Shown one piece after another: positions 5,012 through 49,308 of a stretch of 64,000 nt of DNA. The position numbers were made by a program, and so were the translations under genes. Source of the DNA: Thiomicrorhabdus sp. Milos-T2 (lineage in GTDB: Bacteria > Pseudomonadota > Gammaproteobacteria > Thiomicrospirales > Thiomicrospiraceae); NCBI RefSeq assembly GCF_000702325.1, contig NZ_KL370891.1, positions 2,003,306-2,067,305 on the forward strand, read 5' to 3'. The notes beneath the pieces are model-generated. The model did not search any database. It saw only the letters and a program-made list of their open reading frames with translations, and was not told where the DNA came from. Each line of letters begins with the position of its first letter. Within the stretch, counting starts at the first letter, position 1.

Positions 5012-6793
5012 CTATTTATTTTGCACTAAAGCTTGTAGCTTAAGCATTTCATCAGCATTCCAGCCTGACTTGCCTAGGTTTCGTTCATCTAAAGCCGTCG
5101 CTAACGCAATAACGCACACATCAAATTCAGCCTGAATAAAGGCTTCATCATCTGGAATATCAGACTGCATAACCAATTCCATTTCGGGTTGGTACCCTGC
5201 ATCATTTACAACTTGAGTGGCTATTTGCACATTAAATTCATTTGCTTGCAGCGTTTTAATAAATCCACCTAAGGTTACATAGTCACGCTGCTTAGACTTT
5301 ACAAGGTCTTGCACAAATTCTTTTGCAAAAACCACACTCCATTCAGGTCGCTTAAGTAATAAACGCAGCATTTTAAGTGGCAATGTCACGACTTTGGTCA
5401 CAACACTTTCAGAACTTAGGTTTTTACCAGGCCTGGTAGAATCTTTTTTAAACTGAGCAAAACCAGATTTAACATTCATCTGTTTTTCAACTCGCCAGGT
5501 TGGCAAATCAACTAAATTAGCAACGCCTTCAGCCAATAAGAACTGGTAAAGCCCATGCGCAGATTGAACATAGGGTTCGGCCAATGACACAAATTGCTGT
5601 CGCCCTTCTATACTATTTACCGGAAAAGACAACTTACCTTGTAAGCCTTGCATTAAAAATTCGGAAAGTGACAAGGATTCTGCGACTCTTTTCTTAAAGC
5701 CTTCAGTACCCTCTTTTCTTACCATTGAATCGGGGTCTTCTCCCTCTGGTAAAAATAAAAACTTAACTGAACGCTCTTTTTCCATCATCGGCAAAGCCAG
5801 TTCTAAAGCTTTCCAAGCAGCTTTTAAGCCTGCAGAATCACCGTCAAAACAAAATACAATTTCATTGACTTGTCTAAACAGCAGCTCCAAGTGTTCAACC
5901 GTCGTTGCTGTTCCTAGAGTAGCCACCGCATTTCTAATACCGTACTGCGCTAATGCAACGACATCCATATACCCTTCAACCACCAAAATATTGTCAAACT
6001 TTTCACGTGATTGACGCATTTCAAACAAACCATACAAGGTATAGCTTTTATGAAATATTGGGGTTTCCGGAGAGTTTAAATACTTGGGTTGGTCATCACC
6101 CAAAACCCGCCCACCAAAAGCAATAACCCGTCCTCGACCATCTCTAATAGGGAACATAACGCGATGACGAAAGCGATCATATTGTTTACCGCCTTCTTTT
6201 TCTACTAACAAACCCACTTCAACCAATTGCTGTTGAAGTTTTTTATCTGCAGTTAAACCTTTAACCAAACTATCCCAACCAGGAGGAGCAAATCCAATGA
6301 CAAACTCTTTGGCTACATCGGCACTCAGACCCCGTTCTTTTAAATAATCTTTGGCTTGTTGAGATTGCGAATGATCACGCAATTGATGACGATAAAATTT
6401 GGCAGCAAGATGCATAACATCATATAAATCGCGCTGTTTTTCTTGTTTGAGCTGCTGGGCTTTTTGTTGCGCAGGAGAACGCTGTTCACGAGGAACAACC
6501 ATACCGTATTGAGCGGCAAGAGCTTCTACTGCTTCTACAAATGATAGACCATCGTATTCCATAAGGAATTTAATGGCATCACCACTGGCTCCGCAACCAA
6601 AGCAATGGTAAAACTGTTTACTGGAACTAACATTAAATGACGGGCTTTTTTCATCATGAAATGGGCAGCAAGCTTTATAAGAAGAACCTGCTTTTTTAAG
6701 GGGAACACGTTGATTTATAACCTGCACAACATCGGCTCGAGACAATAATGTCTCGATAAACGAACGTGGAATACTTCCACCCTGTTCAGCCAT
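5012..6793 (-). CDS. dnaG: DNA primase DnaG
   Basis: Primase that makes the RNA primers for replication. The zinc ribbon is at about 45-69 (Cys45, His48, Cys66, Cys69). The RNA polymerase core follows, with the TOPRIM segment (VVEGYMDVVALAQYG; CFDGDSAG) around 275-325, and a C-terminal DnaB-interacting part. Length (~593) is normal. The ATG at 6793 is chosen because AAGG lies 7 nt upstream; a GTG two codons earlier overlaps that site. An exact ACCAGGCCTGGT (5426-5437) lies inside the gene and is read as Thr-Arg-Pro-Gly. It is preceded by a terminator-like hairpin that could reduce its expression relative to yqeY. Confidence 0.98.
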   Translation of the reverse strand: MAEQGGSIPRSFIETLLSRADVVQVINQRVPLKKAGSSYKACCPFHDEKSPSFNVSSSKQFYHCFGCGASGDAIKFLMEYDGLSFVEAVEALAAQYGMVVPREQRSPAQQKAQQLKQEKQRDLYDVMHLAAKFYRHQLRDHSQSQQAKDYLKERGLSADVAKEFVIGFAPPGWDSLVKGLTADKKLQQQLVEVGLLVEKEGGKQYDRFRHRVMFPIRDGRGRVIAFGGRVLGDDQPKYLNSPETPIFHKSYTLYGLFEMRQSREKFDNILVVEGYMDVVALAQYGIRNAVATLGTATTVEHLELLFRQVNEIVFCFDGDSAGLKAAWKALELALPMMEKERSVKFLFLPEGEDPDSMVRKEGTEGFKKRVAESLSLSEFLMQGLQGKLSFPVNSIEGRQQFVSLAEPYVQSAHGLYQFLLAEGVANLVDLPTWRVEKQMNVKSGFAQFKKDSTRPGKNLSSESVVTKVVTLPLKMLRLLLKRPEWSVVFAKEFVQDLVKSKQRDYVTLGGFIKTLQANEFNVQIATQVVNDAGYQPEMELVMQSDIPDDEAFIQAEFDVCVIALATALDERNLGKSGWNADEMLKLQALVQNK

Positions 6794-6838
6794 ATTCACA
6801 CCTTATCCACAGAAAAATACACAGGCCCTAAAACCAAA

Positions 6839-6870
6839 AAAACCCGCTAGCATTACACTAACGGGTTTCT
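6839..6870 (-). terminator. Internal terminator between yqeY and dnaG
   Basis: Stem AACCCG-TAG/CTA-CGGGTT (with one bulged pair) around a short loop at 6841-6867, followed on the minus strand by seven or more T. It lies inside the rpsU-dnaG-rpoD operon. E. coli has a partial terminator at the comparable place, before dnaG, which keeps primase low relative to S21; the same role is inferred here. Confidence 0.75.
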
Positions 6871-6919
6871 TGAGGAAGAGTCAGTTCCAATAAAATTAAA
6901 TCAGTCTAGCGGTTATAGC

Positions 6920-7369
6920 CTAGCCTAACTTTGCTTTAATTAACTTGCTGACTTCACCCATATCTGCACGACCTTGCATCTCAGGTTTTAACAAGCCCAT
7001 CACTTTACCCATGTCTTGCATGGAGCTGGCACCTGTTTTTGTCATTGCATCGTCAATTAATGCATTAATTTCATCTACAGTTAAGGCTTGTGGCATGAAA
7101 TCCTGAATAACGCTCATTTCGTAGGCTTCTTGCTCAGCTAAATCAGGACGCTCGGCATCCGTATATTGCTGATGAGAATCACGGCGCTGTTTCATAGCTT
7201 TATCTAAAATCGCTAGAACACCTGCATCATCTACTGTTGTTTGGTTATCAATCTCAACCTGCTTAATGGCGGCTAAAACTGAACGTACTACTTGAAGACG
7301 TTCTTTATTTTTAGCTTTCATACAGGCTTTCATTTCAGCCGTTAGTTGTTCTTTCATTGTTGCTGACAC
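6920..7369 (-). CDS. GatB/YqeY domain protein
   Basis: A 149-residue all-helical protein that matches the YqeY family: MKEQLTAEMKACMKAKNKERLQ at the start, the middle motif YTDAERPDLAEQEAYE and the C-terminal GADMGEVSKLIKAKL-type ending. The fold is shared with the tail of GatB, the tRNA-dependent amidotransferase subunit, and may bind tRNA; the cellular role is unknown. It sits between rpsU and dnaG, a placement common in proteobacteria, 16 bp after the rpsU stop. Confidence 0.92.
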   Translation of the reverse strand: MSATMKEQLTAEMKACMKAKNKERLQVVRSVLAAIKQVEIDNQTTVDDAGVLAILDKAMKQRRDSHQQYTDAERPDLAEQEAYEMSVIQDFMPQALTVDEINALIDDAMTKTGASSMQDMGKVMGLLKPEMQGRADMGEVSKLIKAKLG

Positions 7370-7385
7370 TAACTTAAGCCTTTAC

Positions 7386-7601
7386 TTAGTACATACGAGT
7401 CGTACGACGGTTTTCACGAGATAAACGTTTTGCTAAACGCTTAACTGCTGCAGCCTTCATACGCTTCTTAGCCCAAGTAGGCTTCTCGTAATACTCACGT
7501 TTACGAGTTTCAGTTAACACACCTGCTTTTTCGCAAGCACGTTTAAAACGACGTAAAGCTACGTCAAATGGTTCAGTATCTCTGATTTTTACGCTTGGCA
7601 T
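7386..7601 (-). CDS. rpsU: 30S ribosomal protein S21
   Basis: A 71-residue basic protein, the usual length for S21. It begins [20 protein letters not shown] and ends in an Arg/Lys-rich tail ([17 protein letters not shown]). S21 helps initiation on the 30S subunit. It is the first gene of the macromolecular-synthesis operon and is driven by a strong promoter in the intergenic region shared with tsaD. Confidence 0.98.
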
Positions 7602-7677
7602 AATTTCAACCTATTACAAAATTTAGAATTCATTGCATCTTCCTCACGCAAGAAATGAGAAATAGCAGAAAGGGGGA

Positions 7678-7706
7678 ATTATAAAATTACTACTCACTAT
7701 TTGCAA
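7678..7706 (-). promoter_or_regulatory. Sigma-70 promoter of rpsU operon
   Basis: On the minus strand, TTGCAA (7701-7706) and a consensus TATAAT (7678-7683) are 17 bp apart. Transcription would start near 7671, about 70 bp before rpsU. This is one of the clearest promoters in the window. Confidence 0.8.
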
Positions 7707-7778
7707 ACCTTTTTCCGATAAAATTTAACATTATTTGTTAAAATTCAGTCACTTTGATTTTAATAGAAGAATTTTACA

Positions 7779-8804
7779 ATGTTGGTATTAGGTATAGAGA
7801 GCTCTTGCGATGAAACTGGAGTGGCTATTTATGACACAGATAAAGGCTTAATTGCACATACTCTGTACACTCAAATTGAACTGCATGCTCAGTATGGTGG
7901 AGTAGTACCTGAACTTGCTTCTCGTGATCACATTCGCAAACTCACCCCGCTTATTTTACAAATCCTTCAAGAATCAAATATTGAGCGCTCTCAATTAGAT
8001 GGCATTGCTTACACTTCAGGGCCTGGTTTAATTGGTGCTTTGTTAGCCGGCAGTTCGGTTGCGCGTAGTTTAGCCTACGCATTAAAAATTCCAGCCGTGG
8101 GTGTTCATCACATGGAAGGCCACTTGCTTGCCCCTATGCTTGAAGAAAATCAACCCAAATTCCCTTTTATTTGTTTATTAGTCTCGGGCGGCCATAGCAT
8201 GATTATTCGAGTAGATGGCATTGGTCAATACAAAGTATTGGGCGATACCTTAGACGATGCTGCCGGTGAAGCGTTTGATAAAACCGCTAAACTTTTAGAA
8301 TTGGGTTACCCTGGCGGTCCAAAAGTTTCTGACTTAGCGCTTAAAGGCAATGCGGATCGCTACAAATTTCCTAGACCAATGATTGACCGCCCTGGCCTGG
8401 ATATGAGTTTTAGTGGTTTAAAAACCTTTACGTTAAATACTTGGCAAGCCGCCGTAAAAAACAATGACGCTACTGATCAAACCAAAGCAGATATTTGTCG
8501 CGCTTTTGAACTTGCGGTTGCCGATACCTTAAGCATTAAATGTAAACGCGCTTTAGAGCAAGAAAAGCTTAACCGTATAGTGGTTGCAGGCGGAGTCAGC
8601 GCCAACCGAGAGATTCGGAATAAATTAGATGCCTTAATGAAAAAACGTAGAGGCGAAGTGTTTTACCCTAGGCTCGAATTCTGTACCGATAATGGCGCAA
8701 TGATAGCCTATGCAGGTGCGCAGCGTTTATTAGCCGGCCAGTCTAATGATTTAAACTTTGCCGCAACGCCAAGATGGTCTTTAGAAGACTTACCTAAAAT
8801 TTAA
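7779..8804 (+). CDS. tsaD: tRNA threonylcarbamoyladenosine transferase TsaD
   Basis: A 341-residue ASKHA-fold enzyme that transfers the threonylcarbamoyl group to A37 of ANN-reading tRNAs, together with TsaB and TsaE. It begins [17 protein letters not shown]. The metal-binding motif is HHMEGH (about residues 108-113), and the C-terminal part has [10 protein letters not shown] and CTDNGAMIA. Length is typical. It is divergent from rpsU, the same arrangement as in E. coli. A palindromic 300-bp element begins 4 bp after its stop codon. Confidence 0.97.
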
Positions 8805-8807
8805 TTT

Positions 8808-9265
8808 GGGTATATGTATTTTATGATTGATTAAACAAATCTTTTAACCACGAAGACACGAAAGCACGAAGATTTCTAATGAGACCTTTGCACGAGATAG
8901 GTGCGAAAGAAAAATGAGGTAAAATTTGCCTGATTGCGGCGGAAAACGCAGGGAATAGCTAGCTATTCGCTAGTTTTTCAACAAAAATCAGACAAATTTT
9001 AACCATTTTTACTCGTGCATACTCTCGTGCAAAGGTCTCCTAATATCTAATACCAACTTAAATTTAACCAATAACCAAACTAAATTTAATAAAATAATCG
9101 CTTTTAAACTATACAAATGCAGAGCTGCATAGCTTATAAGCATGACTTAAGATCGTTAGCGTATGATTTTCTAATCGCTTTTATTTATTTTTTATCTTCG
9201 TGCCTCTGTGTCTTCGTGTTTAATTTCTACAATACTAGATAATCAATCACGAAATACGGATACCC
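8808..9265. repeat. R4 palindromic element, copy 1 (MITE inside)
   Basis: Together with 33661-33948 (inverted orientation) this is one of two copies of a ~300-bp element. Ends are imperfect inverted repeats: GGGTATATGTATTTTATGATT on the left against the complement of a right end with GATAATCAATCACGAAATAC. A second inverted layer follows: ACCACGAAGACACGA near the left and TCTGTGTCTTCGTG near the right. The centre is AT-rich and has no ORF. This copy is split by a 159-bp MITE (8881-9039). CACGAAGACACGAAG-type repeats are widespread in bacteria; the mobility of this one is an inference. Confidence 0.8.
8881..9039 (+). mobile_element. GAGACC MITE, copy A, nested in R4
   Basis: Full-length 159-bp copy with ends GAGACCTTTGCACGAG and CTCGTGCAAAGGTCTC and the central palindrome TAGCTAGCTA. 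It is flanked by a direct repeat CTAAT on both sides. The second R4 copy has the same site once and empty, which shows insertion directly. It encodes no protein. Confidence 0.9.
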
Positions 9266-9326
9266 TTTAATTTGATAAAGCTAACAGACTGGTTTTGGCT
9301 AATTTATCCAATCGGCTAGTCAGTAA

Positions 9327-9350
9327 AACCTTTGCAAGAGTCGAATTCTC
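9327..9350. repeat. Degenerate MITE end fragment
   Basis: ACCTTTGCAAGAGTCGAATTCTC resembles the collapsed ends of the GAGACC element and lies right at the stop of plsY. It is too short and diverged to date or orient. Confidence 0.4.
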
Positions 9351-9991
9351 TATTTACGCTCTTGCTCTTCTTGACTATCTTCTTCTTTTTTAGAAACTTT
9401 AATTAAGCTCTCTTCACCATTCAATAAACGCTGAATATTGCCTTTATGACGCCAAAATAAAATCAACGTCATAATAGATACGATCCACACCCAATCGATT
9501 TCAGCGGATAAAAACCAAATATAAATAGGCGCTAAAATCGTCGCTATTAAAGCCGACAATGATGAGATTTTTAAGACCTTTGCCACAAACAACCAGGTCC
9601 CTGCAACGGCTAAACCGATTGGCAACGATAAACCAAACATTACACCTAACATAGTTGCAACCCCTTTACCGCCTTTAAAACCAAAAAACACTGGGTATAA
9701 ATGACCAATAAACGCCGCAAATCCTACAAGCCCTATCACTAAGGCCGAAAAACCTAATTGATGTGCAATCAATACTGGCAACAACCCTTTTAACATATCG
9801 CCAAACAAGGTAATTGCTGCTGCCTTTTTACCCTTGTCACCACCAATACGTAATACGTTAGTGGCACCAGGATTACCCGATCCTCCCTCTCGTGGATCGG
9901 GTAAAGACATTAATCGGCATACAATAATTGCGGTTGAAATAGAACCTAACAAATAGGCTGCCACAATAATTAATACAGCTTGTAATTCCAT
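9350..9991 (-). CDS. plsY: Glycerol-3-phosphate acyltransferase PlsY
   Basis: A 213-residue integral membrane enzyme that transfers the acyl group from acyl-phosphate to glycerol 3-phosphate, the first step of phospholipid synthesis. Family motifs are GGSGNPGATNVLR in the first loop, GFKGGKGVAT in the second and HKGNIQRLLNGEE near the end. There are about five hydrophobic segments. The C-terminal tail is charged and longer than usual. GAGGAAA lies directly before the ATG, and the palindrome TACCAGGCCTGGTA (10003-10016) abuts this ribosome-binding site. It is divergent from folB, as in many gammaproteobacteria. Confidence 0.96.
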   Translation of the reverse strand: MELQAVLIIVAAYLLGSISTAIIVCRLMSLPDPREGGSGNPGATNVLRIGGDKGKKAAAITLFGDMLKGLLPVLIAHQLGFSALVIGLVGFAAFIGHLYPVFFGFKGGKGVATMLGVMFGLSLPIGLAVAGTWLFVAKVLKISSLSALIATILAPIYIWFLSAEIDWVWIVSIMTLILFWRHKGNIQRLLNGEESLIKVSKKEEDSQEEQERK

Positions 9992-10002
9992 CTACTTTCC
10001 TC

Positions 10003-10016
10003 TACCAGGCCTGGTA
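10003..10016. repeat. ACCAGGCCTGGT palindrome at plsY ribosome-binding site
   Basis: Extended 14-bp version TACCAGGCCTGGTA, immediately upstream of the plsY Shine-Dalgarno on the minus strand. One of 18 exact copies of the 12-bp core in this window. Confidence 0.9.
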
Positions 10017-10178
10017 ATAACGTGAACCAACGTGCAACTCAGCAATACGTGGATTTTAAATAATTGCATGATTTTACAAGAAGTAGATAATAAGCGTTAA
10101 TTTAAATATGAATTCAAACACATTTGCTCGCTAACTCGTTAACTTACCGAAGTCAGCTATCCATCAAGGACAATCAAT

Positions 10179-10562
10179 ATGAATCAATCTTCTTTTTCAC
10201 AACAAATGGATACCGTTTTTATTGAAGGCTTAAAAACTCAAGCAATTATTGGGATCTATGACTGGGAAAGAGAAAATCGGCAACCTCTTATTTTTGATAT
10301 AGATATGGATTTACCCATAACGCAAGCGGCAAAAAGTGACGATATTAATGACACCGTTAATTACAAACAGGTTTCAGATGAAGTTATTGAACTGGTAGAA
10401 AACAGCCGGCATGAACTTTTGGAAACATTGTGTGAAGAAATTTGCCAACACATTCTTACCAACCATTTAGCTGTAAAGCGATTACATCTAAAAGTAAGTA
10501 AACCTAAAGCGGTGGCGGAAACAGACACGGTTGGTTTAAAAATTACCCGTATTAGAAATTAG
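10179..10562 (+). CDS. folB: Dihydroneopterin aldolase FolB
   Basis: A 127-residue enzyme that converts 7,8-dihydroneopterin to 6-hydroxymethyl-dihydropterin and glycolaldehyde in folate synthesis. It shows DTVFIEGLKTQAIIGIYDWE at the start, DDINDTVNYKQVSDEV in the middle, the catalytic-region LLETLCEEIC, and VSKPKAVAETDTVGLKITR at the end. Length is normal with a ~10-residue N-terminal extension. It is divergent from plsY and convergent with the FliG-like pair. Confidence 0.96.
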   Translation: MNQSSFSQQMDTVFIEGLKTQAIIGIYDWERENRQPLIFDIDMDLPITQAAKSDDINDTVNYKQVSDEVIELVENSRHELLETLCEEICQHILTNHLAVKRLHLKVSKPKAVAETDTVGLKITRIRN

Positions 10563-10585
10563 AAACGGGCTTTCTTTTAAAGACC

Positions 10586-11050
10586 TCACATAGTTGAAGC
10601 GTGTAGCTCTTTTTGTTCTTTAGCAGCAAGCTTAATAAATGGAACAATTTGTTCCATATATAGACAAGCATTATGTTCGGTAATTTTATCCATTGCTTGA
10701 TAATCTGCTTCAAACTGCCTACGATTTTGCTTTGATAAATTACGCAATACTTTTTGATAAAGCGCATCTCCTTCAGCCAAACGCACTATAGTTACCAATT
10801 GCTCTGGTGTCACCTTAGGTGCAAACTTCTGAACAATTCGATCATCAACCCCGGTCATTTTTGAAGCCAAAACGCGATAGGCCGTTAATTTACGTTCCAA
10901 CCCCGCTTCATCAACTTTAGAATGGCTATTTAAACGCTCATCCACCACTTGATGCAAAGCTTGTATGACATCAACAGGCAAAGAAAAAGTTACCGGACCT
11001 ATTTCAAGCTGATAGGCTCCCGTCTTATCGCGGCTTGCTGAAATTTCCAT
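10586..11050 (-). CDS. FliG C-terminal-domain-like protein B
   Basis: A 154-residue protein of unknown function. The ATG at 11050 has AAAGGA 7 nt upstream; an earlier in-frame ATG adds 8 residues but lacks such a site. The second half (PEQLVTIVRLAEGDALYQKVLRNLS-, then RRQFEADYQAM) resembles the C-terminal ARM-like domain of the flagellar motor switch protein FliG, where KVLxNLS and an acidic helix are typical. The N-terminal half (YQLEIGPVTFSLPVDVIQAL) resembles the corresponding part of its upstream neighbour, so the two are probably paralogues. No other flagellar gene is in the window. Confidence 0.75.
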   Translation of the reverse strand: MEISASRDKTGAYQLEIGPVTFSLPVDVIQALHQVVDERLNSHSKVDEAGLERKLTAYRVLASKMTGVDDRIVQKFAPKVTPEQLVTIVRLAEGDALYQKVLRNLSKQNRRQFEADYQAMDKITEHNACLYMEQIVPFIKLAAKEQKELHASTM

Positions 11051-11088
11051 ATTCAATCCTTTATTTAAGACCATTACAAGAGTCTTTT

Positions 11089-11553
11089 TTATATGTAACG
11101 TGTTTCGCTAGAAATAAATTCAATTTCACCTAAAGCTTCTAATTCAAATGTTTTTTCAACAATACGTCGAAGCGACTCTTTAGCTTCAGACTCTTCAGGA
11201 ATGTTTGAGGTGAGTAAATCAGCTTCAATCTGTTTTGCCAGAATACTTCCGATATTCGACAAAATTAATTCATTAAGCGTTTTATCTTGCGCCAACATCA
11301 TCATGATTATTAAATCTTGTGAATCAAGAGTACGAAGCAATTTTTGCATATGAATGGGAGTAAGCGACTTGATACGCAAACCAAGCTTTACATAACTGTC
11401 TAAAGTTGAATGCTGCTCACCTTTTTCAAGCGCTAATAAGTGCTCTAAAGTAATATTGAGTAACGCAACTGAAAACTGATCCATCTTGACCACACCGCAG
11501 CCGATATGCACCAACCATTCATTTTCTTGTATTTTTTTTATACCAACTTTCAT
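11089..11553 (-). CDS. FliG C-terminal-domain-like protein A
   Basis: A 154-residue protein, the same length as its downstream neighbour, 38 bp away, so probably co-transcribed. Residues ~65-150 follow the FliG C-terminal pattern closely: MQKLLRTLDSQDLIIMM, NELILSNIGSILAKQIEADL and a last helix ending in LEALGEI. In FliG this region contacts the stator and sets rotation direction. FliG's N-terminal and middle domains are absent; instead there is a ~60-residue beta-rich start (NEWLVHIGCGVVKMDQF). A role outside the flagellar switch, or as a switch modulator, is possible. Confidence 0.75.
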   Translation of the reverse strand: MKVGIKKIQENEWLVHIGCGVVKMDQFSVALLNITLEHLLALEKGEQHSTLDSYVKLGLRIKSLTPIHMQKLLRTLDSQDLIIMMMLAQDKTLNELILSNIGSILAKQIEADLLTSNIPEESEAKESLRRIVEKTFELEALGEIEFISSETRYI

Positions 11554-11616
11554 TTCTGTCTCACAGATTAGACTCGGTTGAGTCCAAGTTCTTAATTAAC
11601 GACTCGCTTTCATAAT

Positions 11617-11811
11617 GAGACCTTTGCACCCAAGGGCATAAACACGAGATAGACGCGAAAGAAAAATGAGGAAAAATTTGCCTGATTGCGGCGGAAAACG
11701 CAGGGAATAGCTAGCTATTCGCAAGTTTTTCAACAAAAATCAGGTGAAATTTTACCCTCAAGGGGCACCTAGAACCATTTTTATTCGTGCATACTCTCGT
11801 GCAAAAGTCTC
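11617..11811 (+). mobile_element. GAGACC MITE, copy B (expanded)
   Basis: About 195 bp. It has the usual core (GCCTGATTGCGGCGGAAAAC, TAGCTAGCTA) but carries extra bases in both arms: CCAAGGGCATAAACAC after the left TTTGCAC and CCTCAAGGGGCACCTAG on the right. Flanks ATAAT and ACAAT form a 4/5 target duplication. A left-end fragment of another copy lies at 11875-11891. Nothing else is recognisable in the 11554-12111 gap. Confidence 0.8.
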
Positions 11812-11874
11812 ACAATAAACAATCTTAAGCAAAGATGCTTCCAAAACCAACTAAATCCAACAATTAAACTTATA

Positions 11875-11891
11875 GAGACCTTTGCAAAAGT
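11875..11891 (+). repeat. MITE left-end fragment
   Basis: GAGACCTTTGCA preceded by TTATA, the same five bases that precede two other left ends (13355, 17813). No matching right end follows. Confidence 0.55.
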
Positions 11892-12111
11892 AGATAAATT
11901 TACAAAAAAGGTTATTTTTTTCTATCTACAGCAAAAAAAGAAACGTTCAACTTCGATTTTTGAGTTGAAAACCATACGAAAAAATCACTATATTAATAAC
12001 ATTTAAATCCGTGGATTAAGTAGCTGTTTTATCTGCTTTGATGCATAATGCTCAGTACTTATAGAATAGAAACAAAACATAGCCCAATTCAAGATAATAT
12101 AATTCTTTACA

Positions 12112-13332
12112 ATGAAACCAACCCATAACCACACAGCAAAAGGCCGAAATCGCGCCAAAATTTTACCTCAGCCAACTGAAGAAGCGGCAGAGCATAGTCA
12201 GATATTAACCGACAACATTAAACGATTTTTAGCTCGTCACCAGAACTTACCTTTTTCTAAATTTATGGAAATGGCGTTATACACACCTCAGTTAGGTTAT
12301 TATGCAGGAGGTTTACCCAAATTTGGTAAAGCCGGTGATTTTATTACTGCGCCTGAAGTTTCGCCCATTTTTTCTCGTTGTTTAGCTCGTCAAACAGCTC
12401 AAGTTTTATCTCAATTAGATGAACCGAATATTGTCGAATTTGGTGCTGGTCAAGGCACCATGGCTAAAGACATCTTATTAGAACTTGAGGCCATACAGCA
12501 AACTCTGCATCGATACTATATTATCGAAATCAGTGCCGATTTACGTGAGCGCCAACAACAGGTTCTTTCAGAAAATTTATCCGCAGAGATTTTTGCCAAA
12601 ATCGTTTGGTTAGATAAACTACCTACCACACCCATTTCAGCTGTTATTTTGGCCAATGAAGTCTTAGACGCCATGCCTTTTGAACGACTCCGTATCGAAC
12701 CCGAGCGAGCTCTGCAAGGTTATGTTGTTTTTAATGAAACAACCCAACAATTTGATTGGGACTACAAAAACATTACTGAAACCAAACTTCAAAGATTTGC
12801 CAATCAACTGATTAAACACATAGGTAAAGTCTCTGATTTAGGTTATGAAACTGAAATAAATCTAAATATCAAACCGTGGTTAAAAAGCTTAAATGCTATC
12901 CTATCAAGTGGTGCCGTTTTCTTAGTTGATTATGGTTACACTCGAGATGAATACTATCAACCCGCTCGAGTTATGGGAACTTTGCGCTGTCATTATCAAC
13001 ATCGCGCTCATAACAACCCTTTCTTTTACCCAGGGTTACAAGACATCACCGCCCATGTCGATTTTACAGCTGTGGCCGAAGAAGCTTTTGATAGTGGATT
13101 TAAAGTGGCCGGATATACAACGCAAGCCCACTTTTTAATGGGTAGCGGCTTACTAGAAATGTCGTTTGATGCTAATGCAGACGTAACAGAACAGATTCAC
13201 AATGCACAACAAATCAAAACATTAACACTACCAGATGAAATGGGCGAAACCTTTAAGGCTATCGCTTTAACTAAAAACTTTGACCAACCCTTAATAGGCT
13301 TTAGTGTAAGGGATTTACGTCATCAACTTTAA
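12112..13332 (+). CDS. SAM-dependent methyltransferase, MidA/NDUFAF7 family
   Basis: A 406-residue class I methyltransferase of the family (COG1565) that includes mitochondrial NDUFAF7/MidA, an arginine methyltransferase for a complex I subunit. The characteristic start is FSKFMEMALYTPQLGYYAGG followed by GDFITAPEVSPIFS. The SAM-binding loop is VEFGAGQGTMAKDIL, and DYGYTRDEYYQPARVMGTL and NPFFYPGLQDITAHVDF are family signatures. The bacterial substrate is not known. It is followed by a very short MITE relic and then uppP. Confidence 0.9.
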   Translation: MKPTHNHTAKGRNRAKILPQPTEEAAEHSQILTDNIKRFLARHQNLPFSKFMEMALYTPQLGYYAGGLPKFGKAGDFITAPEVSPIFSRCLARQTAQVLSQLDEPNIVEFGAGQGTMAKDILLELEAIQQTLHRYYIIEISADLRERQQQVLSENLSAEIFAKIVWLDKLPTTPISAVILANEVLDAMPFERLRIEPERALQGYVVFNETTQQFDWDYKNITETKLQRFANQLIKHIGKVSDLGYETEINLNIKPWLKSLNAILSSGAVFLVDYGYTRDEYYQPARVMGTLRCHYQHRAHNNPFFYPGLQDITAHVDFTAVAEEAFDSGFKVAGYTTQAHFLMGSGLLEMSFDANADVTEQIHNAQQIKTLTLPDEMGETFKAIALTKNFDQPLIGFSVRDLRHQL

Positions 13333-13354
13333 CTTTCATCAACTTTAACTTATA

Positions 13355-13403
13355 GAGACCTTTGCTCCCAGGGGCATAAACTCGAGATAGGTGCAAAAGT
13401 CTC
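13355..13403 (+). mobile_element. GAGACC MITE, copy D (shrunken)
   Basis: Only 49 bp: a left end with the insertion-type arm (CCCAGGGGCATAAAC) and a right end GTGCAAAAGTCTC, with the whole core missing. It is flanked by perfect direct repeats TTATA. It lies between the MidA-type gene and uppP. Confidence 0.8.
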
Positions 13404-13437
13404 TTATAAAAACTCACTAACCAATACAGGAAAAACC

Positions 13438-14205
13438 ATGGATATTTTTCAAGCCGCTATATTAGGTATTATTGAAGGTCTGACCGAATTTTTGCCCATC
13501 TCCTCCACTGGCCACCTTATTGTGGCAAGTGAATGGTTGGGATTAGAACAAACCAATCAAAACATGGCATTTGAAGTCATTATTCAAGTTGCCGCTATTC
13601 TGGCTATTTTTTCGCATTACAGTGCCAAATTTAGCCTAGAGCACGTTCGCTTGTGGATTAACGTCTTCATCGCTTTTTTACCGATTGCCGCCATTGGTTT
13701 TCTGTTTCATCATCAAATCAAAGAGTTTTTTGCACTCAGCATCGTCGCGTGGATGTTTATTATAGGCGGGATCATTTTTCTGATAATGGAAAAACTCTAT
13801 AACGAAGGCACCCACCGCACTCGAGACATTGAAAACCTAAGCATCACACAAGCTTTTTGGATAGGCATTGCCCAAATGTTTGCGCTCATTCCTGGAACAA
13901 GCCGTGCAGGGGCATCCATCGTGGGGGGCATCATGGTTGGACTCGATAGAAAAGCCTCAGCCGAGTTCTCATTTTTATTAGCGCTGCCCGTTTTAGCGGC
14001 GGCTTCTGGGCTAGACCTACTTAAAAACTACTCAGAATTTGCCAATACCTCATGGCTCCCTCTTATTGTTGGCTTTATTATGGCTTACATTGTGGCTTAT
14101 TTAACCATGAGTTTATTCTTACGCTTTTTAGAAAAATTCACCTTTAATGCCTTTGGTATCTATCGCATTATTTTTGGAATTGTCTTACTGATTTGGTTTG
14201 TTTAA
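13438..14205 (+). CDS. uppP: Undecaprenyl-diphosphatase UppP
   Basis: A 255-residue integral membrane phosphatase that recycles undecaprenyl pyrophosphate to the monophosphate carrier for peptidoglycan synthesis; overexpression gives bacitracin resistance (old name bacA). The two signature regions are present: [20 protein letters not shown] at residues 9-28 and [16 protein letters not shown] around 148-163. About seven hydrophobic segments follow the family pattern. The next gene is separated by a full MITE. Confidence 0.97.
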
Positions 14206-14224
14206 ACAACTCGGTTTTTAACAT

Positions 14225-14383
14225 GAGACCTTTACATGAGATAGGTACGAAAGAAAAATGAGGTAAAATTTGCCTGATTGCGGCGGAAAACGCAGGGAAT
14301 AGCTAGCTATTCGCAAGTTTTTTAACAAAAATCAGGTGAATTTTAACCATTTTTACTCGTGCATACTCTCGTGCAAAGGTCTC
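14225..14383 (+). mobile_element. GAGACC MITE, copy E
   Basis: Full 159-bp copy with a left end bearing two substitutions (GAGACCTTTACATGAG) and a perfect right end. Flanking bases AACAT and ATTAT do not form a clear duplication. Its right end lies 3 bp before the nnrE/nnrD start codon and contributes AAAGG at 14375-14379, 7 nt from the ATG. Confidence 0.88.
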
Positions 14384-14386
14384 ATT

Positions 14387-15904
14387 ATGAAACTCTACAG
14401 CGCCCAAAGTTCTCAAGCCATTGATAAATTGGCGATTCAAAAGGCCCATATTCCCGGGCTTTTACTAATGAAGCGTGCGGGATTTTTTGCCTTTAAAACC
14501 CTAGAATCCCTCTGGCCAAAGGCCAAAAATATACAGATTATTTGTGGCACAGGCAACAATGGTGGCGATGGTTTTGTTGTCGCTCAATATGCCATCTTAG
14601 CCGGCTACAAGGTCACTGTTACTCAACTAGGTGATTCATCCAAAATACAAGGTGATGCTTTAAGTGCATTGCTCGAACTCAATGCATTGGGCATCACATC
14701 ACAACCCTTTTCACTGCAAAATTTTGCACAAGCCGATGTCATTATCGATGCCGTATTTGGAACAGGATTAGATAAACCGGTATTAGGTGAATTTGCTGAC
14801 ATATTTAAGCAAATCAATCAAACTCAAAAACCCGTTTTAGCCATTGATACTCCTAGTGGTTTAGATGCCAATACGGGTGCCATTTTAGGCTCAGCAATTC
14901 AAGCGCAAAATACCTGTACTTTTATTACGCAAAAGTTAGGTTTATACACCTTCCAAGGCAATGACACGGCAGGTAAAATTCATTTTAGCCCACTCTTTAT
15001 TCCTCAAGAACTTTATCAAACGCAACCTCATATCGCTGAAAACCATCCATTAAAATACTGGCTAAACAAACTCCCTATTCAGCTCGCAAGTCGCCATAAA
15101 GGGGTTTCGGGAACTGTCTGTTTAGTGGGTGGCAATAAAACCATGATGGGAGCCATTCAGCTTGCTGGCCTAGCCAGTTTAAAAACTGGGGCAGGCCTGG
15201 TAAAAGTGATTACCCATCAAGAACACGGAATTGCAATCACTCAAGCTATTCCAGAAGTCATGTGTTATCAAACGGAAGACTTATCCACGCAAGCCAGTCG
15301 AGCTAATGTGATTGGTATTGGCCCGGGTTTAGGATTAGACAATTGGGGGCAGGATTTATTTTCAAAAGTGATGGACTTGCCATTAAATAAAGTGATTGAT
15401 GCCGATGCCTTAAAACATCTAGCAAGCTTTTGTCAAAGTCGCTTTGGTCAGACCCTCTTTAAACAAACCCAGGAGCAAGCAAGCAATCAAAACTGGGTAC
15501 TCACCCCACACCCTGGCGAAGCGGCAGTGTTACTAAATTGCGACACCCAAAGCATTCAGCAAGATAGAATTGCCGCCATTAAAGCGCTACAAAATAAATA
15601 CGGTGGAGTCATTGTTTTAAAAGGCAATGGCACCTTAATTTATGATGGCAAGAATATGGAAGTTTGTTTAGCCGGCAACCCAGGCATGGCGGTTGGCGGG
15701 ATGGGAGATGTATTAACCGGCGCGATATCCACCTTCATTGCACAAGGTTTATCTCTTTGGGATGCGGCTTGTTTAGGGGTTTCTTTACACGCTCATGCCG
15801 GAGACGTCCTCGCCAACCAAAACAGTCAACCCGGTATCTTACCCTCTGAAGTCGCACAAGTCATGAGTCAGCTATTAAGCTATAGCGACAGCCCAAAAAT
15901 CTAA
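14387..15904 (+). CDS. nnr: Bifunctional NAD(P)H-hydrate epimerase/dehydratase
   Basis: A 505-residue repair enzyme for damaged, hydrated NAD(P)H. The N-terminal YjeF_N domain (about 1-215) has CGTGNNGGDGFVVAQYA and is the epimerase. The C-terminal carbohydrate-kinase-like domain (about 225-500) has TPHPGEAAVLL, VVLKGNGTLI and NPGMAVGGMGDVLTG and is the ADP-dependent dehydratase. The ATG at 14387 is chosen over an in-frame start at 14336 because the latter lies inside a MITE and adds residues foreign to the family. The ribosome-binding site is then AAAGG from the end of the MITE. An incomplete ACCAGGCCTGGT-like site (10/12) is at 15190-15201. Confidence 0.95.
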   Translation: MKLYSAQSSQAIDKLAIQKAHIPGLLLMKRAGFFAFKTLESLWPKAKNIQIICGTGNNGGDGFVVAQYAILAGYKVTVTQLGDSSKIQGDALSALLELNALGITSQPFSLQNFAQADVIIDAVFGTGLDKPVLGEFADIFKQINQTQKPVLAIDTPSGLDANTGAILGSAIQAQNTCTFITQKLGLYTFQGNDTAGKIHFSPLFIPQELYQTQPHIAENHPLKYWLNKLPIQLASRHKGVSGTVCLVGGNKTMMGAIQLAGLASLKTGAGLVKVITHQEHGIAITQAIPEVMCYQTEDLSTQASRANVIGIGPGLGLDNWGQDLFSKVMDLPLNKVIDADALKHLASFCQSRFGQTLFKQTQEQASNQNWVLTPHPGEAAVLLNCDTQSIQQDRIAAIKALQNKYGGVIVLKGNGTLIYDGKNMEVCLAGNPGMAVGGMGDVLTGAISTFIAQGLSLWDAACLGVSLHAHAGDVLANQNSQPGILPSEVAQVMSQLLSYSDSPKI

Positions 15905-15975
15905 ACCTACTAGGCCTGGTCGCTAAACCTTATTTCATAAGTCATTCAAACTCAAGTCATTCAAACTCAAACCAC

Positions 15976-17085
15976 TTAAACTTTAGGCAAGAAACCGGAT
16001 AAGGTTTGAATATCTTTGTATAGAGAGTCTTCATCAACCGCTAATACGTTAATATGCCCTAACTTGCGTCCCACTCTTTCTTCTTTATCATACAAGTGTA
16101 AAAAGGCATTTGGCATGGTTAACACCTTTTCTACTGGTCCAGTCTCGCCAATAATATTAATCATTGCGGCTAAAGGCTGGCGTGGAGAGGTATCGCCTAA
16201 TGGCATGCCGGTAATAGCTCTTACATGGTTTTCAAATTGTGACGTATAAGCCCCTTCAATTGTCCAATGTCCCGAATTATGGACTCGTGGTGCCATTTCG
16301 TTTGCCACTAAACCATTGACGGTTTCAAACAATTCTAAGGTTAATACCCCCACATGATCCAACTCATCTAACAGGCTGTGCATATACTCTTCAGCTTGCT
16401 GCTGAATTTCTGCTGAGACTTCTCTGGCCGGGGCAATGGTGTAACGTAAAATGCCTTCGTGGTGCACATTTTGTACCAACGGGTAATAAACATGCTCATT
16501 ATTCGCATTGCGCACAGCCACAATAGAAAGCTCTCGCTGAAAATCAATAAAGCCTTCTAAAATAAGTTCTCTTCCGCCAATTTCTGACCAGGCCTGGTCA
16601 ATTTGAGACGCTTCTTTAAGCACAAATTGCCCTTTTCCATCATAGCCTTCGGTTGTGGTTTTTAGCACAGCGGGCAGTCCAATTTCATCCACGGCAATTT
16701 TTAGACTTTCTAATGAATCAACCACTTGGTATGGCGCGCATGGAATACTTAATTGATCAAACATGCCTTTTTCACGACCACGATGCTGTGAAATAAACAG
16801 AGATTTTTCTGCCGGGTAAACAGGGGTGGTTTTGGAAATTTCACGCATAAGCTCTACACTCGTGTTTTCACTTTCGTAGGTAATGACATCGGCAAAATCG
16901 ACTAGATTATTAAGTGAATCCGTATCATCTGACGCCATATGCATGTGACCTAGCAGTGCAGATGGTTCACTTTCATTAGTTCCTAAAAAACCAAACTTTT
17001 GCCCTAAAGGATAACCAGCAATCGCTAACATACGACCAAGCTGGCCAGCACCTAAAACACCAATGCATTTTGTAATCGGGGTCAT
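15976..17085 (-). CDS. purK: 5-(carboxyamino)imidazole ribonucleotide synthase PurK
   Basis: A 369-residue ATP-grasp enzyme that makes N5-CAIR from AIR, bicarbonate and ATP in purine synthesis. It begins TKCIGVLGAGQLGRMLAIAG. The ATP-grasp core has AVLKTTTEGYDGKGQ, and the metal-binding end has NEMAPRVHNSGHWTIEG. The ATG at 17085 is chosen (GGAG nearby); a longer frame adds 16 atypical residues. It follows purE on the minus strand after ~147 bp that hold a terminator-like hairpin. An exact ACCAGGCCTGGT (16587-16598) encodes Asp-Gln-Ala-Trp in the gene. Confidence 0.96.
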   Translation of the reverse strand: MTPITKCIGVLGAGQLGRMLAIAGYPLGQKFGFLGTNESEPSALLGHMHMASDDTDSLNNLVDFADVITYESENTSVELMREISKTTPVYPAEKSLFISQHRGREKGMFDQLSIPCAPYQVVDSLESLKIAVDEIGLPAVLKTTTEGYDGKGQFVLKEASQIDQAWSEIGGRELILEGFIDFQRELSIVAVRNANNEHVYYPLVQNVHHEGILRYTIAPAREVSAEIQQQAEEYMHSLLDELDHVGVLTLELFETVNGLVANEMAPRVHNSGHWTIEGAYTSQFENHVRAITGMPLGDTSPRQPLAAMINIIGETGPVEKVLTMPNAFLHLYDKEERVGRKLGHINVLAVDEDSLYKDIQTLSGFLPKV

Positions 17086-23116: not shown

Positions 23117-23275
23117 GAGACCTTTGCACGAGATAGGTGCGAAAGAAAAATGAGGTAAAATTTGCCTGATTGCGGCGGAAAACGCAGGGAATAGCTAGCT
23201 ATTCGCAAGTTTTTCAACAAAAATCGGGGAAATTTTAACCATTTTTACTCGTGCATACTCTCGTGCAAAGGTCTC
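23117..23275 (+). mobile_element. GAGACC MITE, copy G
   Basis: Full 159-bp copy with both 16-bp ends perfect, flanked by the direct repeat AACTT. It lies between rsmE and the next gene and fills most of that gap. Confidence 0.92.
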
Positions 23276-35077: not shown

Positions 35078-35261
35078 GAGACCTTTGCACGAGGTAGGTG
35101 CGAAAGAAAAATGAGAGAAAATTTGCCTGATTGCGGCGGAAAGCGCAGGGAATAGCTAGCTATTCGCAAGTTGTCGCCCAACGGAAGTACCCTTGGGGTA
35201 CAACAAAAATCAGGTGAATTTTAACCATTTTTACTCGTGCATACTCTCGTGCAAAGGTCTC
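35078..35261 (+). mobile_element. GAGACC MITE, copy I (with insertion)
   Basis: 184 bp with normal ends and core, plus about 25 extra bases after the central palindrome (from CGCCCAACGGAAGTACCC). Flanks TTACA and TTAAA make a 4/5 target duplication. The right end lies 6 bp from the ppk2 stop codon. Confidence 0.85.
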
Positions 35262-45316: not shown

Positions 45317-46264
45317 ATGAATAAATGGTTCAGAAAAGGCAATGCTCGACGCTTTCATCGTGTAGATATACCTATACGCTTTTTTATCGTGCCGAGCTCT
45401 CCTATCAAAGACCGTGAAATTTATGCTACTGGTGCCGACTACTTTCCACCAACTTTAGTCGATATGATTGAAACTAAAAAATATCATACTATTCACTCTG
45501 TTGAAAAAATCAAAGAACAGAGCGAATTGGTCACAAAAATTTTTAACGATGTTATTGAAGACATTGAGTTTTTTGGGGAATGTGCCAAAAACGTCTCTAT
45601 TGGTGTCAACCCCAAAAATGATGTTAGTTATTGGTTGAAAGTAAAAGAGAAGCTAGAAGGGTTCTCTTCCATTCATAGTATTAAAGCTAGCTCGCCTAAG
45701 ACATTTCAATACTTATCATTAATTGAAGAAAAGTATTTAAGTTATTTACAACGCTTAACTAATAGCATTGGCCAATCTACGCCTGAACACTTTTATGTTG
45801 AGGGTCTTTTGCCCATCGGATATAAACTTGACGAAATGATAGGCGTTTTTCAAAACCCCAAATTTTCAAAGATACCGCTAATTCAAGCGATATTACACTT
45901 AGCAGAATTCTTAGAAGCCTATCTAGATGTTTATCGACAAATTAACGATGATAATTACATCAAACAGTTTCCTGAAAACTGGCCAAATCAAATTGGCAAC
46001 TTAAGTGCGAGTGGATTAGCCGTTTTACTTCCTAAAAGATTTGAATTGTACTCTCGAGTCGATGTTTATTTGTATTTTGAACACGACAATAAAATCATTA
46101 ACTTTGATGGCAGTGTGGTTGACTTACGTGAAGACAATGAAAACCACAGAGAACGGGTAGCAATTAACTTTGAATTTCCAAATGGAAACGACCAAGACTA
46201 TATACAAAATGAGATTCAAAAGCAAGAAGTCAAAGAGTGCATGAAATTTGCTTTATACTCATAA
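45317..46264 (+). CDS. PilZ-like c-di-GMP-binding protein (split type)
   Basis: A 315-residue soluble protein. The N-terminal RRFHR (residues 11-15, an RxxxR motif) is followed by a beta-type segment (VDIPIRFFIV), then ~180 mostly helical residues, then NLSASGLAVLLPKRFELYSRVDVYLYF with the (D/N)xSxxG motif near residue 230. PilZ domains normally have these two c-di-GMP-binding motifs within ~35 residues, so here the domain seems split by a long helical insertion. Its ligand binding is inferred. Same layout as the protein at 46864-47787. Confidence 0.75.
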   Translation: MNKWFRKGNARRFHRVDIPIRFFIVPSSPIKDREIYATGADYFPPTLVDMIETKKYHTIHSVEKIKEQSELVTKIFNDVIEDIEFFGECAKNVSIGVNPKNDVSYWLKVKEKLEGFSSIHSIKASSPKTFQYLSLIEEKYLSYLQRLTNSIGQSTPEHFYVEGLLPIGYKLDEMIGVFQNPKFSKIPLIQAILHLAEFLEAYLDVYRQINDDNYIKQFPENWPNQIGNLSASGLAVLLPKRFELYSRVDVYLYFEHDNKIINFDGSVVDLREDNENHRERVAINFEFPNGNDQDYIQNEIQKQEVKECMKFALYS

Positions 46265-46863: not shown

Positions 46864-47787
46864 TTAATAAGATAAAGCAACTGAAACAATGGCATCTCTA
46901 AGCTCTTTACGCTGTTCAAACAAGGTTATCTTTTGTTCCTGCTCAGAGGTTAGCAAATCAAATTCAACACCAACTCGATAGGGATGAATCTGTTCGTTGG
47001 TCTCTTTCTGAAAGATAATTTTACCTCTACAAATGAGTATTTCACCGTCAATATCCATAAAGACATCCATAATACTAAACAGTTTATAAGGCGAGGTTGA
47101 TAAAAAACTAAAACCACCCGCGCTTAAGTTCACCCGATAATTCTTCCATTCATGCGAGTGGGAAATCTCTCTATAAGCCTCTTTTAGTCTTTCTAATACC
47201 TTGGCTTGTAAGTTCAACTTATCTAACATCAAACGAAGTACCTTAGCGGGCAAAACGCCACTTTGAGCTAATTCATCAAGGTTTTTAACATATTTTTTAT
47301 CATCAAAAACCTCTAACGAGGCTTTGGAATAGATAAAAATCTTACCATCAACACTGCCTGTTACAACGGTTTGCAACTCCTCAATATACTGATTGATTTG
47401 TTCATATAAACCTAAAATTAACGGCCCAATAGATGACGACTTCTTACTTGAAGGAGGGCTAAATTTCTTATCTTCTCGGGTTCTAAACTTATAATCATCG
47501 GCTAAACGTGGATCATTCGACTCCATTAAATGTTCAATCAACCACCACATAAAATCTAAACGATGATTTAACACATAAAATACATAAAGCGCATTGGAAC
47601 TAGCATCAAACACTTTTTCTAACCAACCACTTAACTGGGCATTTAACTCTTTTAAACCCTCTTCTTCAGCCAAAGAAATCAATTCCCTACGCTCAGCACT
47701 TAAATGTTTTCCATAGCGGTCAACCGGCTCTAGATGCATGGGTAAAATTACATCGTAACGAAAGTAACGACGGGCGTTGTTAGACAT
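46864..47787 (-). CDS. PilZ-like c-di-GMP-binding protein (split type) 2
   Basis: A 307-residue soluble protein with the same organisation as the product of 45317-46264: RRYFR at residues 6-10 (RxxxR), then VILPMHLE, a helical insertion of ~190 residues, then NYRVNLSAGGFSFLSTSPYKLFSIM (NxSxxG near 220) and a final helix. Reading the two together suggests a family with an alpha-helical module inside PilZ. Convergent with the preceding genes. Confidence 0.75.
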   Translation of the reverse strand: MSNNARRYFRYDVILPMHLEPVDRYGKHLSAERRELISLAEEEGLKELNAQLSGWLEKVFDASSNALYVFYVLNHRLDFMWWLIEHLMESNDPRLADDYKFRTREDKKFSPPSSKKSSSIGPLILGLYEQINQYIEELQTVVTGSVDGKIFIYSKASLEVFDDKKYVKNLDELAQSGVLPAKVLRLMLDKLNLQAKVLERLKEAYREISHSHEWKNYRVNLSAGGFSFLSTSPYKLFSIMDVFMDIDGEILICRGKIIFQKETNEQIHPYRVGVEFDLLTSEQEQKITLFEQRKELRDAIVSVALSY

Positions 47788-49148: not shown

Positions 49149-49308
49149 GAGACCTTTGCACGAGAGTATGTACGAAAGAAAAATGAGGAAAAATTTGCCT
49201 GATTGCGGCGGGAAACGCAGGGAATAGCTAGCTATTCGCAAGTTTTTCAACAAAAATCAGGTGAATTTTAACCATTTTTACTCGTGCATACTCTCGTGCA
49301 AAGGTCTC
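49149..49308 (+). mobile_element. GAGACC MITE, copy N
   Basis: 160-bp full copy with both ends intact, flanked by the direct repeat ACCAT. It occupies much of the 49105-49532 gap; the remaining ~220 bp, up to lptM, shows no further gene. Confidence 0.92.

Follow-up and report, generated by a model that had tools for sequence, protein, structure and literature searches.

A pair of stand-alone FliG_C proteins in Thiomicrospiraceae with a possible link to the flagellar motor

Results

Two Adjacent Genes Encode 154-Residue Proteins Outside the Flagellar Cluster

We analyzed a window of 64,000 nucleotides from the sulfur-oxidizing bacterium Thiomicrorhabdus sp. Milos-T2, in which two adjacent minus-strand genes, here called P1 (11089..11553) and P2 (10586..11050), encode proteins of 154 aa each, P1 being first in the pair and P2 following after a gap of 38 bases. 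The longest ORF at P2 has 162 aa, owing to an in-frame ATG upstream at 11074; the start at 11050, which opens the protein with MEI or MDI and is conserved in relatives, gives 154 aa, and with this start both of the neighboring 154-residue proteins named in the original prediction are present. In relatives, the gap is mostly 6–60 bases long (73, 104, and 105 in three of them), and the two reading frames touch in genomes G071 and G073, as expected for genes sharing one transcript.

The pair is flanked by folB (10179-10562, plus strand; named from sequence) and by a methyltransferase gene (12112-13332, plus strand; PF02636), and it sits amid housekeeping genes, outside the flagellar cluster. It had been claimed that no flagellar gene is near: naming the ORFs listed for positions 6000-16500 by eye, we found no flagellar structural gene among them, and the flagellar cluster, which includes FliG, lies about 1.2 Mb from the pair along the contig. 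The genome carries its pair in addition to a normal, single FliG of 340 aa located elsewhere.

P1 and P2 Combine a New Head with the FliG C-Terminal Domain

Both proteins pass the Pfam gathering cut-off (23.3 bits) for the FliG C-terminal domain, FliG_C (PF01706), in residues 61-145 of P1 (11119..11373, minus strand; E = 1.4e-7, 32.2 bits) and in residues 64-145 of P2 (10616..10861, minus strand; E = 1.1e-6, 29.3 bits). The coordinates were converted by hand, and the P2 match is numbered 65-146 in the query sequence used, whose start was one codon upstream. All further Pfam families listed for P1 or P2 are below their own cut-offs, FliG_N and FliG_M gave no Pfam match in either protein up to E 10, and the true-FliG equivalog TIGR00207, which requires 226.7 bits, was not reached (18.2 bits for P1 and 14.4 for P2). 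Compared with solved FliG chains in the PDB, the family profiles match at E 5.7e-6 (P1) and E 1.6e-4 (P2), the single sequences reaching FliG at no better than E 0.17–0.63. The Pfam and profile matches bear out the proposal that the second halves follow the FliG C-terminal pattern. As to the motifs quoted for P1, QKLLRTLDSQDL, LILSNI, and LEALGEI all occur, the last of them near the end of the protein rather than as its final residues, since EFISSETRYI follows; the C-terminal Y/F-I is conserved.

AlphaFold2 models built on family alignments (27 sequences for P1 and 24 for P2) have a mean pLDDT of 84.2 and 85.8, respectively, and both comprise three strands and a helix, a second helix and further helices, the last helix of P2 being long. 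FliG ranked top in Foldseek searches with either model, although every E-value was at least 0.001. Structural alignment to the FliG C-terminal domain gave a best Z of 13.1 for P1 (93 residues, 1.6 Å) and 10.8 for P2 (87 residues, 2.2 Å), so that the FliG-C fold, on which the original prediction depended, is present in both models; FliG bound to MotAB (8ucs_H) aligned with Z 11.8 and 9.7, respectively. In each structure list the top 15 rows are FliG chains, the next ones being a FliF-YlxF model (9a67_B; Z 5.5 for P1 and 7.0 for P2) and others at Z 4.6 and 4.7. A few FliG rows align to the middle part of FliG, namely one for P1 (4fq0_C) and three for P2 (3hjl, 8umx_B, and 4fq0_C). We also considered the N domain of MgtE, whose superhelical fold is related to that of P1, and rejected it as nearest relative: the P1 model aligns to MgtE chains with Z 4.5–4.6, far below the 13 reached with FliG-C, and P1 and P2 lack a CBS or transporter part. 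Likenesses of the first 42–44 residues of P2 to PUR, MoSub1, and COMM folds (Z 3.4–4.5) were too weak for use.

The heads of P1 and P2 do not evidently resemble each other when the two window sequences alone are compared (z 1.6). The family profiles, however, align from residue 1 (1-125 of P1 with 1-129 of P2, 125 columns, probability 96%), and this alignment, together with the three strands and helix of both models, sustains the idea that the proteins share a similar short beta-rich start. Judged from their profiles, P1 and P2 are paralogous over head and tail. It had likewise been proposed that another start replaces the N and middle domains of FliG, in line with the absence of FliG_N and FliG_M matches and with the newly modeled head. 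Altogether, P1 and P2 are confirmed as genuine FliG_C relatives with a new head, and not a chance likeness: they have in common with the C-terminal helical domain of the flagellar C-ring protein both fold and sequence profile, and they differ from FliG in having a beta3-alpha head instead of FliG_N and FliG_M and in being two paralogues whose adjacent genes stand apart from the flagellar cluster. We infer that they would have derived from FliG itself rather than share a common origin with it.

The Pair Is Conserved in Thiomicrospiraceae

P1 was found in 33 of 58 relatives, including 31 of the 32 genomes of the window's genus. Match counts, among the matches listed, give 55 of 62 family genomes with FliG_C matches beyond, or instead of, full-length FliG; by the same counts among the matches listed, FliG is present and the pair missing in all four genomes of genus g2 (completeness 81–100%), in G034 (85% complete), and in G001 (79%). 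The order folB-P2-P1-methyltransferase is retained in the three genomes of genus g28 examined. The dN/dS ratio is 0.05–0.11 for P1 (4 unsaturated pairs) and 0.03–0.05 for P2 (2 unsaturated pairs), both families have invariant positions in head and tail, and the pair is under purifying selection. Given that P1 and P2 are short and miss two of the three domains of FliG, they might be taken for relict FliG fragments, or for a chance ORF pair without function; this is scarcely credible and already contradicted by conservation, namely by the occurrence of such matches throughout most of the family (55 of 62 genomes, among the matches listed), the same gene order in genus g28, dN/dS values of 0.03–0.11 in six unsaturated pairs, the invariant positions in head and tail, and a conserved promoter motif described below.

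Two larger sets of genomes were searched, both of them samples of larger groups. Among 369 Gammaproteobacteria, the P2 profile matched 43 genomes outside the family, all in ORFs of 330–422 aa, which points to full-length FliG; among 398 genomes of the phylum, the P1 profile matched 49 such genomes, with ORFs of FliG size in nearly every case, the exceptions being G626 and frames of 146 aa in G503, 584 aa in G524, and 256 aa in G582. A search with P1 found no match in plasmids or phages. Exact P1 peptide patterns, which over genome contigs reach close relatives only, gave 26 loci, assigned to Thiomicrospira, Thiomicrorhabdus, or Hydrogenovibrio or named no more closely than to a wider group. 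In the searches made, the pair appears confined to Thiomicrospiraceae, bar one probably misbinned contig in G626. This contig (L161), assigned to a MAG of another class, has both the pair and the Thiomicrospiraceae gene order, and is probably a binning error, not a transfer.

Further occurrences of the domain were noted on the way. G006 has FliG twice and G077 has four FliG_C matches, one of these cases perhaps reflecting mixed strains. G503, of the same phylum, encodes a separate 141-aa FliG_C protein (L160:6380-6805, plus strand) in which, by eye, much of the torque pattern is kept. In G524, of another class of the same phylum, two neighboring genes (L162:143-3683, minus strand) encode FliG_C membrane proteins, one with two FliG_C copies and the other with one FliG_C and an HD domain; they adjoin an ankyrin/HSP70-type gene, and FliG_C is found there outside full-length FliG.

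P2 Keeps More of the Torque Charges than P1

We compared P1 (30 sequences) and P2 (20 sequences) with 25 FliG sequences (28 loci, with L034, L039, and L042 left out) at the five charged residues that we take to be those of torque generation in FliG, K264, R281, D288, D289, and R297, the numbering being checked against the FliG alignment from the PDB search. P2 retains K264 as R (20/20), D288 as E or D (19/20), and D289 as D or E (20/20), and has Q at R281 and T or S at R297 throughout (20/20 each). The window's own P2 is the sole one with A at D288, and keeps two torque positions as against the usual three. In P1, most of the torque charges are gone: K264 is replaced by M or L in 22 of 30 sequences, with R or K in 5; position 281 is I in 29 of 30; D288 gives way to a mixture, with D or E in 5 of 30; and R297 is never R or K, leaving D289, which is D in all 30. 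The full set of five is found in neither protein, P1 having D289 as a rule and P2 three positions with conservative changes. The C-terminal end of P1 stays somewhat FliG-like, with T-x-Y-I in 28 of 30 sequences, as compared with E-E-F-V/L in 19 of the 25 FliG. On these charges, P2 looks better able to face the stator than P1, and the window's own P2 less so than its relatives.

One Genus Fuses a Membrane Protein, M, with a P1-Type Tail

In three of the four genomes of genus g28, we found a third FliG_C protein, of about 292–298 aa, with two hydrophobic stretches (transmembrane call by eye) before its FliG_C tail. Over its first ~185 residues, it shows homology to a protein that is separate in other genomes; we call this protein M, and it is encoded by a membrane-protein gene of its own (L144:8251-8817, minus strand, corresponding to G000:C1:653251-653817). 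M has 183–202 aa, with a longer start possible in one case, and adjoins apaH (named from sequence) in the seven genomes examined; in one genome, only the end of apaH was called as an ORF by the ATG-only ORF finder. Two of the fusions (L109:8524-9399, plus strand, and L110:2781-3668, minus strand) are likewise beside apaH, which is the same place as the separate M, and the third is at L115. Counting fusions, M is present in 59 of the 62 family genomes and absent from G006, G072, and G035, the match being weaker in genus g2 (1e-12 to 1e-14). None of six M sequences searched scored above the cut-off of any Pfam or NCBIfam family, and in 369 genomes of the class there were two weak matches outside the family.

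Of the proteins compared, P1 of the same genome is the one nearest to the fused tail (28/90 identical, z 19.9), followed by P2 (z 7.0), with FliG of the window's genome hardly similar (z 1.4–2.1). Genus g28 still carries separate P1 and P2. Such a fusion suggests that M and P1-type tails cooperate. M also occurs in family genomes without the pair, which implies a role of its own. Considering that the fusion is known from one genus, that separate P1 and P2 persist there, and that M is found without the pair elsewhere, the gene fusion makes a moderate case that M and P1-type tails may work together; in genera without the fusion, M might by extension tether P1 and P2 to the membrane.

A different placement would have P1 and P2 enter the C-ring as FliG variants that compete with or cap FliG-C, altering torque or switching. 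Although both carry the domain of FliG's torque end, and P1 ends somewhat like FliG, they lack FliG_N and FliG_M, by which FliG is bound to FliF and FliM, and it is to a membrane protein instead that the fusion joins a P1-type tail. We regard such an incorporation as quite improbable.

A Sigma-54-Type Promoter Motif Precedes P1

A sigma-54-type (−24/−12) promoter-like motif lies upstream of P1, on the same strand (11826..11845, minus strand), 292 bases from the gene; between the two is a MITE-like insert with terminal inverted repeats (11617..11811), its ends being taken from repeat matches. We searched for the pattern TGG-N8-TTGC in 36 genomes that are kin, not independent samples (30 P1 loci and 6 of the 26 peptide-pattern loci, the other 20 being left out as duplicates), and 27 of them have it on the coding strand no more than 200 bp from P1, against 0.99 expected from 1000 first-order shuffles, in which the largest count was 5. 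On the opposite strand the count was 2 of 36, alike for stretches of 250, 200, and 150 bases. The distance from motif to P1 ranges from 54 to 193 bases across relatives, the element being retained. Nine genomes lack a strict site in the 200 bp before P1: the window (−292) and L025 (−276) have one farther off; L008, L013, L014, L018, and L023 have weaker look-alikes scoring 9.7–13.3, compared with 11.9–26.3 for the 29 strict sites; and in L015 and L022 no convincing look-alike was found upstream of P1.

A matrix made from the sites of 27 relatives, with the window left out, gave four matches at or above the threshold of 15 in the 64-kb window, the one intergenic match being that at P1 (19.3). 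In the 80 kb that hold the flagellar cluster, three matches scored at least 15, and the single intergenic one precedes a CheW-like gene (named from sequence); no match of at least 15 was found in a 15-kb stretch with another flagellin (L108) or in the 17-kb stretch with M (L144). The site before fliE fits a looser pattern only, which occurs at 22 places in the 80 kb, 7 of them intergenic. Directly before fliE-fliF-fliG (the fli genes bar FliG named from sequence) are two sigma-54 activators and a histidine kinase. We detected rpoN in each of the 11 genomes tested, including the flagella-less G035, so that a sigma-54 promoter alone does not mean flagella. Sigma-54 control of the pair, as suggested by the motif, would be compatible with membership in the flagellar regulon and does not prove it. 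A loose regular expression for a sigma-28 motif upstream of P1 gave scattered matches and was dropped.

Two other features of the window were observed in these searches. Its highest matrix score among the matches listed (21.1) falls 100 bases before a PilZ-domain gene (46864-47787, minus strand), within the end of the upstream gene, so that this gene may share control with P1-P2; a second PilZ-domain protein is encoded at 45317-46264 (plus strand). The MITE-like insert belongs to a family with copies at 8881-9039, 11617-11811, 14225-14383, 23117-23275, 35078-35261, and 49149-49308, recognized as inverted TGCAAAGGTCTC pairs (at most 1 mismatch) about 159–195 bp apart; single matches to TGCAAAGGTCTC number 24 in the window, compared with 0.32 expected.

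The Pair Occurs with Flagella, Which Do Not Need It

Each pair-bearing genome among the 62 has a FliG match or flagellin. In G007, G010, G072, and G074, the pair is present and a FliG match absent; a flagellin match in all four (partial in G074), with FliM and FlhA in G072 and FlhA in G074, makes the absence of FliG look like assembly gaps (FliM and FlhA were searched in 18 chosen genomes and flagellin in 9). The one flagella-less genome in the set, G035, which is complete on one contig, is without FliG, FliM, FlhA, flagellin, P1, P2, and M, and the co-loss of the pair with flagella is one event in one genome. A comparison of the pair's phylogenetic profile with that of flagellar genes, as the original prediction had suggested, holds in one direction, the pair occurring only with flagella as judged against this single flagella-less genome, and fails in the other: six FliG-bearing genomes are without the pair, showing that flagella do not need it.

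These six genomes also suit a reading in which P1 and P2 are adaptors outside the flagellum, the FliG_C fold being re-used for protein binding in another membrane-linked system, for instance an envelope complex that is located at the cell pole or linked to c-di-GMP, with the flagellar links a coincidence. The setting amid housekeeping genes speaks in its favor, as do the many functions that sigma-54 serves and the presence of rpoN in a flagella-less genome, the PilZ-domain gene behind the window's best motif match (among the matches listed), the absence from P1, as a rule, of the FliG residue at four of the five torque positions, and the FliG_C membrane proteins of L162, one with an HD domain, which show another lineage using the domain outside full-length FliG. 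It fits less well with the pair, M, and the four tested flagellar genes being jointly missing in G035, with the chemotaxis-type gene that follows the sole intergenic motif match in the 80 kb around the flagellar cluster, and with the fact that 19 of 20 P2 sequences keep a charge at each of three stator-facing positions, where the window's P2 deviates at one. We see in this a real possibility, though on balance a doubtful one.

Discussion

The reading that we prefer, tentatively and in the knowledge that it may well prove wrong, is that P1-P2 is an accessory to the flagellar motor, linked to the membrane, that acts with M and is not part of the C-ring. P1 and P2 would form a cytoplasmic pair related to the stator-facing C-terminal domain of FliG, the beta3-alpha head being most likely its pairing module; the sigma-54 promoter would probably drive both genes at once, alongside part of the motility regulon, and both proteins would probably sit at the inner membrane on the two-TM protein M, where the rotor-like helix of P2 could touch the stators on their MotA side. 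In this accessory role, the trio might be a stator guide, a brake, or an extra ring. A P1-P2 heteromer is plausible in view of the short gap between the genes, their paralogy over head and tail, and their usually being found together. An interaction with the motor is indirectly supported by the sigma-54 motif, the one co-loss, and the charges partly kept in P2; contact with the stators, with whatever direction of effect it would have, is a further step that we infer. Bolder, and in our estimate unlikely, is the idea that in Thiomicrospiraceae membrane-anchored FliG torque domains (M-P1-P2) would face the stators from outside the rotor, as a decoy or guide surface that parks, recruits, or brakes stators. 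If so, the M-P1-type fusion of one genus would be a covalent form of the M-P1-P2 set.

There is precedent for a small, dimeric FliG/MgtE-like ARM-fold protein as a motor accessory ring in FlgY/MotE. The passages on FlgY in PMC11870540 describe a FliG/MgtE-fold protein that forms the periplasmic E-ring in Campylobacter, call FlgY/MotE common outside beta- and gammaproteobacteria, and state that C. jejuni FlgY is not under RpoN. FlgY as described there differs from P1 and P2 in its periplasmic location, its signal peptide, and its coiled coil, and in resembling ARM motifs/MgtE_N, not the torque domain (PMC11870540). Likened to P1 and P2 by description, MotV (ZomB) and MotW of Vibrio are accessory proteins acting on motor output; according to the sections of PMC8789113 that concern them, they tune the Vibrio motor, are limited to some flagellated bacteria, and have suppressors in FliG for both and in FliM for MotV. 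Neither FlgY nor MotV and MotW are known to be identical with P1 or P2. In titles and abstracts of the open-licence literature, we found no account of a stand-alone FliG_C protein pair of the P1/P2 kind. The FliG_C fold is known; the head plus tail architecture and the link with M appear new.

Should the motor link not hold, the pair still exemplifies a use of the FliG torque domain outside the C-ring protein, to which L160 and L162 add two further cases. If the link holds, a rotor surface detached from the rotor and held at the membrane to partner the stators would be a form of motor control not met in the literature surveyed, and it would offer a handle on how flagella are tuned in one family, with cultured Thiomicrorhabdus and Hydrogenovibrio and defined genes to work with.
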